DNA of 35,337 bases, taken from positions 1-35,337 of the forward strand of contig JAQBQB010000024.1 of NCBI GenBank assembly GCA_028287235.1, given 5' to 3'. This stretch comes from Gemmatimonadota bacterium. Lineage in GTDB: Bacteria > Gemmatimonadota > Gemmatimonadetes > Gemmatimonadales > Gemmatimonadaceae. Both the position numbers and the translations under genes were made by a program. Shown piece by piece: positions 7,469 to 14,694 of this stretch (the first letter of the stretch is position 1; every line of letters begins with the position of its first letter). The notes beneath the pieces are model-generated. The model did not search any database. It worked only from the letters and a program-made list of their open reading frames with translations, and was not told where the DNA came from.

Positions 7469-8035
7469 GTGAGCGAAGAGCAGTACATGGCGTTGCGGAA
7501 GATTGCACCGCAGGTTGACCCGACCTTCGAGCTGCTGCTCGTGTTGGCTCACGAGACCGGTCACAGAATCGGCGCGATTCGACAACTTCGGTGGTCCGAT
7601 GTGGACCTCAAAGAGAAGCGAATCACGTGGCGCGCCGAGAACGACAAGATCGGGATGGAGCACACGCCGCCGCTGTCGGTCGAGGCGGCACGGGTGCTCG
7701 ACGCGGCGTGGAAGAAGCGCGCGGCGATCGGAGACGGTTGGGTGTTTCCGTCGCCAGAGAACACGAAGGAGTCGTGTTCCCGGCATCTGATGCGGGATTG
7801 GTGGCAGCGAGCGGCGTCGCTTGCGGAGTTGCCATCGACGGCGCGCATGGGCTGGCACAGTCTGCGTCGCAAGTTTGTGAACGACTTGAAGGGCGATACA
7901 CCGATGGCCGACCTATGTCAGTTGGGCGGCTGGAAGAGCCCGTTGACGATCATGACGGTGTATCAGCAGGCCGACCAAGTGACGATGCGCAACGCGCTCA
8001 CAAACCGCGAAGAACGGCGCGCCGCGGCCCAGTAG
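7469..8035 (+). CDS. Tyrosine recombinase/integrase, catalytic domain only (N-terminally truncated)
   Basis: The 188-aa product is the C-terminal catalytic domain of a phage-type integrase. The active-site set is visible: R in HRIGAIRQLRWSDVD, a lysine in the beta-hairpin after TWRAENDK, H-x-x-R in WHSLRRKF, W in place of the second histidine in LGGWKS, and the nucleophile in MTVYQQAD. The usual ~170-residue arm- and core-binding N-terminus is absent, and a stop 75 bp upstream (7391) prevents a longer version in frame. The GTG at 7469 is the longest plausible start. The gene is either a decayed integrase or a solo catalytic domain; decay is more likely. It sits at the right end of the island, just before repeats also present at the left end. 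Confidence 0.82.
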   Translation: MSEEQYMALRKIAPQVDPTFELLLVLAHETGHRIGAIRQLRWSDVDLKEKRITWRAENDKIGMEHTPPLSVEAARVLDAAWKKRAAIGDGWVFPSPENTKESCSRHLMRDWWQRAASLAELPSTARMGWHSLRRKFVNDLKGDTPMADLCQLGGWKSPLTIMTVYQQADQVTMRNALTNREERRAAAQ

Positions 8036-8150: not shown

Positions 8151-8224
<74 letters not shown>

Positions 8225-9320: not shown

Positions 9321-10442
9321 TCAGCGCGCGGGGTTGAACCAATCCAGCACGTCGAAGGCCTGCGAGAGCTGCATGGCGATCGCATGCCCGCCCTGCCCGT
9401 AGAAGCCGGGTGTGCCGGGACGGATCCACCACCGGTCGGCGCGCACCGACGCCTTGAGCAGCGTCGACGACGTGAGGCGGTACCCCACGCCCGTTTCGCC
9501 GTCGACGAAGTCGGTGAGCCGCGAGCTCCAGCTCACCGTTTGCGCGGGGCGAATGAACGGGTACTTGTTTCGCTCGAGACGCACCGCGACGAAGAGGCGC
9601 GGCGACAGCGTGTACTTCGCCTCGCCATAATACGTGTACCCCGTCAACCCGGTGGTTCGGCCGGGCACGTCGTAGTTTCCTCGCGCGAACTCCGCGTGCG
9701 TCTCGAGGTAGCCGCGTGAGAATGACGCGTCGAGGGCGAACACGCGCTGCTGGTATTCGGTCCAATCCGTGGCGCCGTACTGTGCGGCCGCGAGATCGCG
9801 ATTCAGATACGATCCGGCGGTGAACGATGCGCCGACGCGCAGGCCAACGAACGGCGTGATGCCGCCGCCGATGGCCGGCCGCAACCGCGGCGTCGGCGAC
9901 GGGACGTAGCCGACGTGATCGGCGGGAAGAGAGACCATCGCGGCTCGGTAGTCGAGATGTGTGGTCTCGCCGGAAATCTCGGCGCCAAGGGGATAGTCGA
10001 GCGAGTAGCCGTCGGGGAGGCCGATCAGCGGATTGCGCGTGGAGAAACGGCGCGACGCAAACGTTCCGATCACCGGCGTCAACCGCCCCACATCGATTAC
10101 GAGCGCCCGCGAGCTGGCATAGCGCACGCCGAACTGATTGCTGTACACGTCGTAGCGATCGGACTCGACGCGCGCAGGCCCTCCCTCGGCCATTCCCTGC
10201 GCGTAAAACACGAGACCGCGCACCGGTTCGTACGCCCCCCAGAGTTGTACCCGGCCCAACCCGGCCGGGCGGCCCTTGTTGCGCGTGAGCAGATTGGAGC
10301 TCGCGTTCGTCGACCAGAATTCGGCGTCGGCGACGCCCTGCAACAACACGCCACCCTGCGCGTGCACGCGTCTCGAGCCCGCGGCGAGCACGAGGGTCGC
10401 GAGCGCGAACTTCGCGAGCGCGTCGCGAATCGTGCGCGCCAA
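9321..10442 (-). other. Porin-like outer-membrane protein portion of the kinase frame, possibly a nested gene
   Basis: From the TTG at 10442 the frame reads [20 protein letters not shown] and then ends the leader with VHAQ, a textbook signal peptide whose N-region coincides with the last helix of the receiver. The following ~360 residues show alternating beta-strand-like segments, many aromatic residues, Gly/Asn turns ([14 protein letters not shown]-like pattern) and end in a terminal strand region close to FNPAR. This fits a monomeric or trimeric porin-like barrel. A GTG further upstream (TVFLRKPF) is another possible start. The porin would be the third product of the cupredoxin-kinase unit. 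I cannot tell a translational fusion from an internal start or a sequence error that removed a stop. Confidence 0.6.
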
Positions 10443-12794
10443 CGTCGCCGGCGTGAATGGTTTGCGCAGGAACACCGTGGCCGGATCGAGCTCGTACTGG
10501 GCGAGCGCTTCATCGGCGTAACCCGACATGTAGATCACCACCGGCGCCGGCCGCGTCGCGAGATATTCCGCGACGAGCTGCGGCCCGCTCGTGTGCGGCA
10601 TGACGATGTCGGTGAGCAGCACGTCGATCTTGCCCGCCATGCCGATCTCCAGCGCCTCCGACGCGTTGCGCGCGACGTAAACCGTGTAGCCGCGCTCCTG
10701 CAACGTTCGGCGCGCGAGGATGCGGACATCCTCTGCATCTTCGACGATGAGAATCGTCTCGGTGCCGCTCGGCAGCGTCTCGTCGCTCTCCGGCGTAAGC
10801 TCGAGTGCGCCGAGCGTTTCCGCCGTGGGCAGCGTGATGGTGAACGACGAGCCCGTGCCCAACTCGCTCTCCACGCTCACAGCTCCACCGGATTGGTTGA
10901 CGATGCCATACACCGTCGAGAGGCCGAGGCCGGTCCCCTTCCCCACTTCCTTGGTGGTGAAGAACGGCTCGAAGATGCGTTCCTTCACCTCGTTGCTCAT
11001 TCCGGTTCCGGTGTCGCTGACGACCAGCGCGACGGCGCACGCGTTCGTGCGTTCGGCATCGGCCGCGGCCGCGGGCTCGAGCACGTTGGTCGTCGCGATC
11101 GTGAGGATGCCGCCGCCGGTGCCGGCCATCGCGTCGCGCGCGTTCACCGCGAGATTGAGCAGGACCTGCTCGAGCTGCCCCCGGTCGGCGCGCACGCGCG
11201 CGAGCGGCGGCCCCGACTCGATGCGAAGCTCGATCTGCTCGCCGATGATGCGCCGCAGCATCGGGGCGATTCCCTTCACCACGTCGCCCAGGTCGAGCAC
11301 CGTGGGCTGCATCACCTGCTTGCGGCTGAAGGCGAGCAACTGGTGGGTGAGGTTCGCGGCGCGGTCCGACGCGTCGATCACCTGTCGCAGGTCTTCGGCT
11401 TCGGGGCTCGTCTTGTTGGTGCGCATCAGAGCGAGCTGGGTGTAGCCGGAGATGACCGTTATGAGATTGTTGAAGTCGTGGGCGATGCCGCCGGCCAGCG
11501 TGCCGATGGCCTCGAGCTTCTGCGACTGGCGCAGCTGCGCCTCGCTTTCCCGCAGCGCTTTCTCGATGCGGATGCGCTCCGCGATCTCGTCGGTGAGCAC
11601 GACGTTCGCCGCCGCGAGCTCGGCGGTGCGCTCCTCGAGCTGCCGCCGCTTTCGGGCAATCGAGTCCATGAGCTGATTGAACGAATCGTTCAGCGTGCGC
11701 ACTTCGAGCGCTTCGCGGTCGGCGTCGAACTGCGCCTGTCGCTGCTCCGACGCCGCGCCCGACCGCATGTGGCGCACGAACTTCCGAAACGGGCCGAGTA
11801 CCGTGCGTGCGACGAACGCCGTTCCGAATCCGGCGATCAGAACAGCCAGCCCGCCATAGAGCAGAAAGTCCCGGCGCAGCGGAGCCGTGAGCGCCGCCAC
11901 GCGCCGGGTGAGCGGCTGCAACATCCACAGACGTACGGCCTGATGATCCTGCGTCTCACCGATTGGGACCGCCGCCACGACGTACTCCGCGTCGCCGAGA
12001 CGCACGGTGGCGGCGCTCGAGTCGGCGGCGTGCGGCTCGAGTTGCGACCGCACGGCCGGTGTGCCCAGCGACTGGTCGCTCGCCGACACGACGGACGAGC
12101 CGACGGTGAGCACCACCTCGGCGTCCGACGCCGCGCGGGCCGTGGCGACGAACGCCGAATCGAGCCGGCGGCCGAGCACGAGCGCGCCGAGCGTGAAACC
12201 GTCCAGCACGAGCGGATAGACGGCGATCTCCAGTTCCCCGGAGTCGGTGCGAAGGACGGCGAGATCGCCGAAGTCCGCCGGCAGGTTGGGATCGAGGACC
12301 TGGCGCACGGCTTTGGACGCGAGGAGGCTCGTGCCGCGGGCGATCGTTGCGCCGCGCCGCCCGGCCGCGGCGAAGACGCGCGCGGAATCGTCGGTCACGA
12401 GCAGCACGTCGGCATCGACGCTGCGCAACCGCTTGCGCAGCTCGTCCTCGAGCGTGTTCACGAGATCGAGCCGTGCCTTCCCCGTCGAATTTTTTTCTAC
12501 TTTGTAAATACTAAGATCGTAATGAAAGCTCGGCGTCTGCGTGATGAGCGAAGCGGCGAACAGGAGCTGGCTCGCTTCGCGCGCCTGCAGCACCTGGAGT
12601 GTGCGCTGATTCTGCGCCAGCTGCGTCGCGAAGAGCTGGCGGGTGCTCGACTTGATCTCGGCGCTCAACGCCCAGAACGCGGCGAAGACGACCACCGCCG
12701 TCACGGCGGCGCCGAGCACGGCGAGCTTGGCGCTCAACGAGCTGCGGCGCGCGCGCGCGCGGAGGGTGCCGGTCCCCGGCGCCGTTGAGGTCAC
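9321..12794 (-). CDS. Hybrid sensor histidine kinase with receiver domain, continuing in frame into a porin-like protein
   Basis: From the GTG at 12794 the frame encodes 1157 aa. TM1 (about 24-44), a ~260-residue periplasmic sensor region and TM2 (about 308-331) lead into a HAMP-like linker. A HisKA domain follows with phospho-acceptor H439 in GGIAHDFNN, then HATPase boxes [16 protein letters not shown] and GKGTGLGLS, and a receiver with D729 in LLTDIVMP ending [16 protein letters not shown]. With no stop the frame continues into a signal-peptide-like segment and a ~360-residue beta-barrel-like protein. The GTG overlaps the stop of the upstream cupredoxin gene (GTGA), so translation is coupled; an upstream ATG at 12902 would overlap that gene by 112 bp and is unlikely. 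The single chain would need cytoplasmic and outer-membrane parts, so two products or a lost stop are likelier. Confidence 0.85.
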
Positions 12795-13564
12795 CGCGAC
12801 GCGTTCCCGCCCTGAGGGAGCGGGATGTTGAAATCCACCGAGATCGTCTGTCCCGCCGTCACATGCACGCGTCGCGTGATTGGTTTGATTCGCTCGTGCC
12901 ACCCGACGATGGTGTAGTCGCCTTCCGGCACGTCGTCGATCGCGAAGCGGTGGTCGTCGCCGGGGCTCGCGAAGAACGGATTCGCCAGCACGAGCACGAT
13001 GGCGCTCATGTCAGAATGAATGTGGCAGAACACCTGAACGGTTCCCGGACGAAGGAACGTCCACGCCTTCGACGAGCCGTTCGGGTAGCGGCCGAGATCG
13101 AATCCCTTGCCGCCCGGGGCGGCCGCACTCGACAGCGAGAAGACGTTGTGAAAGACGTCGTCTTCGTTCGGGAAGTTCACCGTGCCGCCGGCGACGATCG
13201 GCAGCACGTGCGGCACGAAGCGTTCGTCGCGCTGCGCGATGCTGCCGTGGCGGCGCGCGTCGATGCGTGCGTCGGACGCGGGCAAGTGCGCGGAATCGCC
13301 CTCGAGATACACCACCACGTTGTGCAGCTCGGCGGCGATCGGATCGCGCGCCGGCGCGGGCGGGAGCGACCCGGCGCCCGGATCGGAGTAGATCCGGAAT
13401 TGCGGGCGCCGGGCCGACAAAGTGCTCGAGATCTCGACCGTCCCCTCTATTCTGCCGGTGGCGCGCGCCGGGGTGGGCCGAAGCGCGCGGGCGCCGACTG
13501 CGCTCGAGAAAACGAGCGCGGTCGCGAGACGGCGGGCCGTGCGAGCCAAGGGTTGACGCGGCAT
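12791..13564 (-). CDS. Periplasmic cupredoxin-like protein (methylamine-utilisation/plastocyanin-like)
   Basis: The 257-aa product has a signal peptide (about 1-26, ending in AVGARA). It carries a cupredoxin-like domain with plausible type-1 copper ligands: H139 in DDVFHNVF, then C180, H183 and M186 in VFCHIHSDM. A C-terminal segment (PEGDYTIVGWHERIKP) resembles the carboxypeptidase-regulatory-like beta-sandwich often attached to these proteins. Related proteins are annotated as methylamine-utilisation or plastocyanin-like proteins; their partner is usually unknown. Its stop overlaps the start of the sensor kinase (GTGA), so the kinase may sense what this protein carries, for example redox state or copper. 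That link is inference from the operon. Confidence 0.8.
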   Translation of the reverse strand: MPRQPLARTARRLATALVFSSAVGARALRPTPARATGRIEGTVEISSTLSARRPQFRIYSDPGAGSLPPAPARDPIAAELHNVVVYLEGDSAHLPASDARIDARRHGSIAQRDERFVPHVLPIVAGGTVNFPNEDDVFHNVFSLSSAAAPGGKGFDLGRYPNGSSKAWTFLRPGTVQVFCHIHSDMSAIVLVLANPFFASPGDDHRFAIDDVPEGDYTIVGWHERIKPITRRVHVTAGQTISVDFNIPLPQGGNASR

Positions 13565-13585: not shown

Positions 13586-13624
13586 CTAGCGCGCGACCCG
13601 CGCAACGCCGCGAGAGAGCGCTAG
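13586..13624 (-). terminator. Possible stem-loop between the 357-aa gene and the cupredoxin gene
   Basis: CTAGCGC at 13586-13592 is complementary to GCGCTAG at 13618-13624, which contains the stop codon of the upstream gene. The loop is 25 nt and there is no T-run, so it may attenuate or process rather than terminate. Confidence 0.3.
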
Positions 13625-14694
13625 CGTCGCTTTACGGGCAACGACAACGGTGGCGGCGGCGCCGACGCACGGCCGCGGCCGTAGCCCGGCGCGGCGGTCT
13701 CGCCATTCTCGCCGGTGAGGACACCTCTGCTCCGTCCCCGCTCCGGACCCGCCACCGATCCGATGCCGGCCACGAAGTAGCCGGTTGCGATCGCGCAGGT
13801 GATGTGCGCGGCCAGGTGCGTCGCGCCGCCCGACTGTGCGGGCGCCCTGAAGACCGGATCGGCGATGGGCTTGTAGGTGCGCGTCATGATTTTGAGGCCT
13901 CCCTTGGTGTACCCCGAGTCGTACGCCGACTCGAGGACATTGAGCACGGCGTCGGGGAGGCAGGTGCGCAGTTGCGTCTCGTAGTTCACGTAGACCTTCT
14001 GCACCGCGTCGAGCCGTGTCTGCATGGAGTCGATGTAGTCGCGAATCTGCACCAGGCTCACATTGAGCGACGACGCCGCCTGGCGGACCTTGAACACCGA
14101 CTTCGGGAAGGTGACGATCTCCTGAAAGCTCGTGAGCTTGCTGGGCATCGTGGTGATGTGCCGCCCGATCAGCTTGTACTGCTCGAGCGCGGTCTTCATC
14201 GCCTCGGCGGCGACTTCGTCGCTCGTGAACAGCTTGCGTACCTCGGCGCCGCTCGACGCGGTCACGCGGGCATCGGCTTCATTGAAGGCGCGCGTCCGCA
14301 GCTCGGTGACGGCCGCGCCGCCGGCGAGCTCCAACAGCTTGCCGACCGCGGTGCCGACGAGCGGAACGGGGATCTTGTCGGCGAGGGACTTGAGCGCATT
14401 GACGGCCATGGGGATGGCATCGGCGGCCAGGTCGTTGGCGCCGGCGAGCATCAGGCTGGACTGCGACCGGACTTCGCGCTCGAACATGACGGTGAATTTG
14501 TCGCGCGATTCGGCGGTCATCGACGCCCAGCTGTCCCGCCCCTGATCGAGGTAAGCCGTGGCAGTGCCCATGTTTGCGCGCGCCATGCGGTCCATCAGAC
14601 TGCGAACCCCGGTGTCGAGCGCTTCCGTGTAGTACTCGCATAGCTTGTCGACGAGCGCGGCGCGGTCGGTGTCGGAAATCGGGTAGTTGGGCAT
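13621..14694 (-). CDS. Unrecognised 357-aa helical protein, divergent from the T6SS operon
   Basis: I do not recognise this protein. It has no signal peptide. The first ~270 residues are predominantly helical, with an amphipathic/hydrophobic stretch at about 94-130 (PMAVNALKSL, VPLVGTAVGKLLELAGGAAV). A second hydrophobic patch lies near 297-317 (THLAAHITCAIATGYFVAG). The last ~40 residues are Gly/Arg/Pro-rich and look unstructured. The start is supported by AGGAG about 10 bases upstream of the ATG. It is transcribed away from tssJ from a shared 342-bp intergenic region, and it is followed after 56 bp by the cupredoxin gene on the same strand. It could belong to that unit, or be a T6SS cargo or accessory protein; neither is shown. 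Confidence 0.7.
   Translation of the reverse strand: MPNYPISDTDRAALVDKLCEYYTEALDTGVRSLMDRMARANMGTATAYLDQGRDSWASMTAESRDKFTVMFEREVRSQSSLMLAGANDLAADAIPMAVNALKSLADKIPVPLVGTAVGKLLELAGGAAVTELRTRAFNEADARVTASSGAEVRKLFTSDEVAAEAMKTALEQYKLIGRHITTMPSKLTSFQEIVTFPKSVFKVRQAASSLNVSLVQIRDYIDSMQTRLDAVQKVYVNYETQLRTCLPDAVLNVLESAYDSGYTKGGLKIMTRTYKPIADPVFRAPAQSGGATHLAAHITCAIATGYFVAGIGSVAGPERGRSRGVLTGENGETAAPGYGRGRASAPPPPLSLPVKRR

Follow-up and report, generated by a model that had tools for sequence, protein, structure and literature searches.

The window, i.e. the complete stretch of 35,337 nucleotides from a Gemmatimonadota bacterium analysed here, contains on its minus strand a single open reading frame (9321..12902, 1193 amino acids from stop to start, no internal stop codon) in which a Cache sensor, a histidine kinase and a receiver are followed, without an intervening stop, by a signal peptide and a porin. 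Its likely start codon, judged from the sequence, is the GTG at 12794, where the frame overlaps an upstream cupredoxin gene by 4 nt, the TG of the GTG being part of the cupredoxin's TGA stop. The features of this module are:

12791..13564, minus strand: secreted cupredoxin-like (type-1 copper) protein, first gene of the module; candidate ligands His139, Cys180, His183 and Met186
9321..12794, minus strand: fused sensor kinase-receiver-signal peptide-porin frame, 1157 amino acids plus stop from the GTG at 12794
11811..12722, minus strand: first transmembrane segment (TM1, 12722-12666), periplasmic dCache-like sensor and second transmembrane segment (TM2, 11867-11811), from hydropathy and a dCache_3 match (E = 4e-4) below cut-off
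10821..11504, minus strand: HisKA (His at 11480, in HDFNN) and HATPase_c, from Pfam and sequence reading
10428..10754, minus strand: receiver domain with the Asp of LLTDIV and the Lys of RKPF, from Pfam and sequence reading
10359..10442, minus strand: predicted internal signal peptide with LARTIRDAL (receiver end and n-region), h-region and SRRVHA c-region, from junction reading and the A|Q motif
10440..10442, minus strand: candidate nested TTG start (rival model), without a Shine-Dalgarno-like sequence upstream; CTC or CTG in eight of nine relatives
10397..10421, minus strand: direct repeat GCGCTCGCGA (copies at 10412-10421 and 10397-10406), a possible footprint of a fusing deletion
9324..10358, minus strand: mature 16-strand beta-barrel porin, 345 amino acids, from AlphaFold and VIA-align; without a Pfam or NCBIfam family

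Within the fused frame, Pfam recognises HisKA (E = 4.6e-9), HATPase_c (E = 7.6e-20) and Response_reg (E = 3.9e-17). With the histidine of HisKA, the ATPase domain and a receiver that retains both the phospho-accepting aspartate and the lysine, the N-terminal part is a hybrid sensor histidine kinase. The periplasmic sensor is matched by dCache_3 under the family cut-off. In the cupredoxin encoded upstream, the four candidate ligands of a type-1 copper site (H139, C180, H183 and M186) are invariant in all eight aligned sequences, and relatives of this protein match PF00127/PF13473. Directly upstream of the module lies the gene for a 357-residue protein without a recognised family (13621-14694, minus strand). 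Elsewhere in the window, a tyrosine recombinase (PF00589, E = 1.6e-15; 7469-8035, plus strand) adjoins a tRNA-Ile(gat) gene (8151-8224, minus strand), an arrangement that resembles a tRNA-associated integration site.

At the junction of the two halves, the last helix of the receiver, LARTIRDAL (10442-10416), reads on without a stop into the signal peptide and then into the beta-barrel, which bears out the first-pass annotation in its proposal that this helix doubles as the signal-peptide n-region. Signal peptides were called here from hydropathy and motif, and all such calls are to be read as predicted. Signal peptidase I is predicted to cut at VHA|Q, between Ala 10361-10359 and Gln 10358-10356. 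The A|Q site is invariant across the 11 rows of the porin alignment, and the motif is common to fused and unfused porins. Judged by hydropathy and motif, the frame thus contains an in-frame internal signal peptide with a signal peptidase I site, as in an FbcH-like polyprotein. Of the membrane segments, which number three, the internal signal scores lowest in a 19-residue hydropathy scan (1.25, versus 2.36 and 2.02 for the other two), and it is also outscored by one segment of the Cache domain and one of the receiver. Only about 10 residues separate its hydrophobic core from the first barrel strand. The two GCGCTCGCGA copies at the junction lie 15 nt apart and are two of the three copies in the window, with 2.1 expected in the whole window; as a trace of a deletion this repeat is suggestive only.

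An AlphaFold2 model of the mature porin (pLDDT 79.9) forms 16 strands and aligns by VIA-align to OmpC/OmpF-type porins with Z 23 and an rmsd of 3.2 over 287 residues at about 10% identity, which places it in the 16-strand outer-membrane porin fold. At the level of sequence, the window porin gave no Pfam match at E up to 1 and no NCBIfam match at E up to 0.01, and a PDB sequence search returned nothing meaningful. The open frame, the domains and the barrel together uphold the central claim of the first-pass annotation, i.e. a sensor kinase-receiver in frame with a porin that has its own signal peptide. Compared to unfused relatives of the same genus, identity is 68-71% for the kinase, 61-62% for the full porin and 64-66% for the mature porin. 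The porin tree groups the window sequence with its congeners and gives it the shortest terminal branch of the genus (0.19 versus 0.28-0.36), and the ratio of porin to kinase branch lengths (FastTree) is about 1.3, versus 2.0-2.3 in four unfused congeners. Given this short branch and low ratio, the window porin is without sign of decay.

Within the order, the porin is present in 17 of the 288 genomes searched, most of which show the gene order cupredoxin, hybrid kinase, porin; at one locus (L029) no kinase was detected next to the porin. Across order and class, we compared 18 other Gemmatimonadota loci, two of them near-identical, in which the kinase directly precedes the porin. All 18 are unfused: the porin is shifted by +1 or +2 against the kinase frame and starts on its own close to the stop of the kinase gene, either overlapping or a few bases off. 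Nine junctions were read base by base, and in each the kinase tail runs for 4-21 codons past the receiver helix and then ends in a stop. The distance between receiver helix and signal peptidase site is 83-178 nt in the relatives and 57 nt in the window, which hence lacks 26-121 nt, namely the kinase tail with its stop, the start of the porin and the n-region. In more distant members of one other family (L089, L094 and L095, family f11), porin, cupredoxin and kinase follow each other in this order, all as separate genes.

The kinase-type fusion is therefore a singleton, seen in one genome and one assembly versus 18 unfused loci. A one-base assembly error was considered as its cause and is disfavoured, since a kinase read on in either alternative frame would meet its first stop only after 105 or 466 further codons, versus tails of 4-21 codons in relatives. 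The first-pass annotation had named, as grounds for rejecting the fusion, relatives with a stop after the receiver together with an indel in this assembly. The outcome of this check is mixed: the stop is indeed present in the kinase-type relatives, but what sets the window apart is a net loss of tens of bases and not a one-base indel, and conserved sensor-porin fusions of independent origin occur elsewhere. The fusion is probably real. It goes beyond chance in that the frames differ in 18 relatives with the same neighbours, and the porin part is 62-66% identical to those of congeners over its full length.

Searching the whole phylum, we found porin matches in other families that lie within reading frames at least about 1000 residues long. 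There, a Cache-HAMP-adenylate/guanylate cyclase (PF00211 and PF00672 as family matches, the Cache-type label of the periplasmic part being our own reading) is in frame with the porin, and the same cupredoxin lies upstream. At least twelve such fusions are full-length (L080, L081, L084, L085, L086, L087, L091, L092, L109, L111, L129 and L130; families f4, f5 and f6); with a partial thirteenth (L097, nominally f1) they span four nominal families and about ten genera, in genomes of variable completeness. Eight of them were aligned over 1111 columns with identity to the first row as low as 41%; they keep the cyclase residues and the internal hydrophobic segment, and nearly all keep the Ala-Gln cut motif. 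The linkers measure approximately 38-118 codons and are in frame every time. The conserved absence of a stop, for which the first-pass annotation had proposed to inspect homologous loci, is thus not found at the 18 kinase-type loci but does occur in these cyclase-porin fusions. In the porin tree, the split between cyclase-fused and kinase groups is strongly supported, and the window is placed deep among unfused kinase-type porins, from which it follows that the two kinds of fusion arose independently. Sequence comparison hence indicates that the sensor-porin fusion was apparently invented twice, and that the cyclase-porin fusion is its old, conserved counterpart across the phylum.

To account for these data we favour, with moderate confidence, a fused precursor born by deletion and cut by signal peptidase I at the internal signal, yielding sensor and porin one to one. 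A lineage-specific deletion would have taken out the stop of the hybrid kinase and the start of the overlapping or abutting porin gene, so that both would then be translated as one precursor. This precursor would enter the inner membrane with TM1, the periplasmic Cache domain, TM2 and the cytoplasmic kinase and receiver, and the former porin signal peptide would act as a third, internal signal in N-in/C-out orientation. The topology agrees, since the N-terminal side of a signal peptide has to lie in the cytoplasm, where the receiver is. Cleavage at VHA|Q by signal peptidase I would free the porin into the periplasm for insertion into the outer membrane and leave the cut signal on the sensor as a C-terminal membrane anchor; the outcome would be a fixed 1:1 production of sensor and pore. 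The observed basis is the open fused frame, the conserved domains and cut motif, the separate kinase-type genes and the conserved cyclase-porin fusions; from these we infer the deletion event, the cleavage, the localisation and the stoichiometry. Against this reading count the singleton state of the kinase-type fusion, the nested TTG that could start a separate porin, and the low hydropathy of the internal signal. A bolder version, in which the processing of this polyprotein class, formed at least twice, might also report the status of envelope export to the sensor, with the uncut precursor and the cut sensor signalling differently, appears improbable to us.

The main alternative, raised by the first-pass annotation, is that two proteins are made from one frame, i.e. 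that ribosomes additionally start at the TTG at 10442, or at a GTG further up in the receiver, beside the fused protein. The TTG does exist, a peptide started there would have plausible n-, h- and c-regions, and the kinase and porin genes of unfused relatives, which overlap or abut, may be translationally coupled. However, TTG is an ordinary leucine codon in this frame (24 of 210), eight of the nine relatives compared have CTC or CTG at its position, and no Shine-Dalgarno-like sequence precedes it; a conserved internal start with a ribosome-binding site, as expected of a nested in-frame gene pair, was not found at this position. Moreover, in the cyclase-porin homologues L084, L086 and L129 the 45 codons that precede the hydrophobic core of the signal include no in-frame ATG, GTG or TTG. 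With the usual start codons, these loci therefore cannot yield a porin that is initiated on its own and still has its whole signal, and the signal must work from within the precursor. Due to these cyclase fusions without a possible start, the shared cut motif and the short distance from core to strand, precursor cleavage is favoured as the general model, and we regard a nested start in the window as unlikely.

Less likely still is an assembly artefact in which tens of bases between separate kinase and porin genes were collapsed. This is the sole genome with a fused kinase-porin and a short direct repeat lies at the junction, both as an artefact might produce; yet it would have to drop 26-121 nt exactly between two domains that are both intact, bring the frame back into register and happen to yield a plausible signal peptide, and homologous fusions occur in many other assemblies. 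It is very improbable that the fusion is real but stems from a recent damaging deletion that abolished porin export: although it is a singleton and its n-region is now borrowed from the receiver helix, the signal core, the A|Q site and the porin frame are intact and the porin branch is the shortest in its genus. Finally, one uncleaved protein spanning from the cytoplasm to the outer membrane, which the first-pass annotation saw as a consequence of a single product, can hardly exist despite the continuous reading frame, as about 10 residues between signal core and barrel strand 1 cannot cross the periplasm and the signal peptidase motif is conserved.

The closest known parallel to the cleaved precursor is the FbcH cytochrome b/c1 precursor of Bradyrhizobium, in which an inner-membrane protein and an in-frame exported protein are separated when signal peptidase cuts an internal signal peptide. 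Here as there, one gene encodes an inner-membrane part and then an exported part with an internal signal, the cleavage in the window being predicted from sequence. In contrast, both FbcH products remain in one inner-membrane complex, while the window pairs a signalling enzyme with an outer-membrane porin. The unfused Gemmatimonadaceae operon encodes the same three proteins (cupredoxin, hybrid kinase and porin) in the same order, but with kinase and porin as separate, out-of-frame, abutting or overlapping genes. The cyclase-porin fusions likewise join a sensor in frame with a homologous porin via an internal signal, but their sensor is an adenylate/guanylate cyclase, and they are old, conserved and of separate origin. 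With the general porins of the OmpC/OmpF type the window porin shares the 16-strand barrel (Z about 23), but identity is about 10% and Pfam and NCBIfam match none of it. To our knowledge, few bacterial polyproteins are cut at an internal signal peptide, and we know of none whose two halves go to the inner and the outer membrane, respectively. A literature search on FbcH, bacterial polyproteins, and porins or cupredoxins with sensors returned nothing on such fusions. A conserved and apparently twice-invented sensor-porin fusion implies that the pore and the adjacent sensor function as a pair. It offers a direct genetic lead to the signal sensed by the cupredoxin-sensor-porin module, and a natural substrate for studying how signal peptidase and the barrel-assembly machinery treat an internal signal.

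A scan of contigs with the single window porin protein returned no relatives, and an alignment-based scan returned eight, all from Gemmatimonadota records; beyond this phylum, the contig scan used two peptide patterns only. Among plasmids, no relative of the L084 porin half was found. Several further cyclase loci deserve mention. At related loci (L132, L133/L137, L134 and L135) the porin lies elsewhere or is convergent. One fused locus (L131, 4425-6674, genome G464) carries a TAG within the cyclase domain, which may reflect a broken gene or a sequence error. The partial fusion L097 comes from a genome (G080) of the window's own family, while its porin groups with that of another family, pointing to transfer or mis-binning. 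Lastly, at L129 (3283-9696, genome G472) a HAMP hybrid kinase, a cupredoxin and a cyclase-porin fusion form one gene run; thus both sensor types can share one locus.
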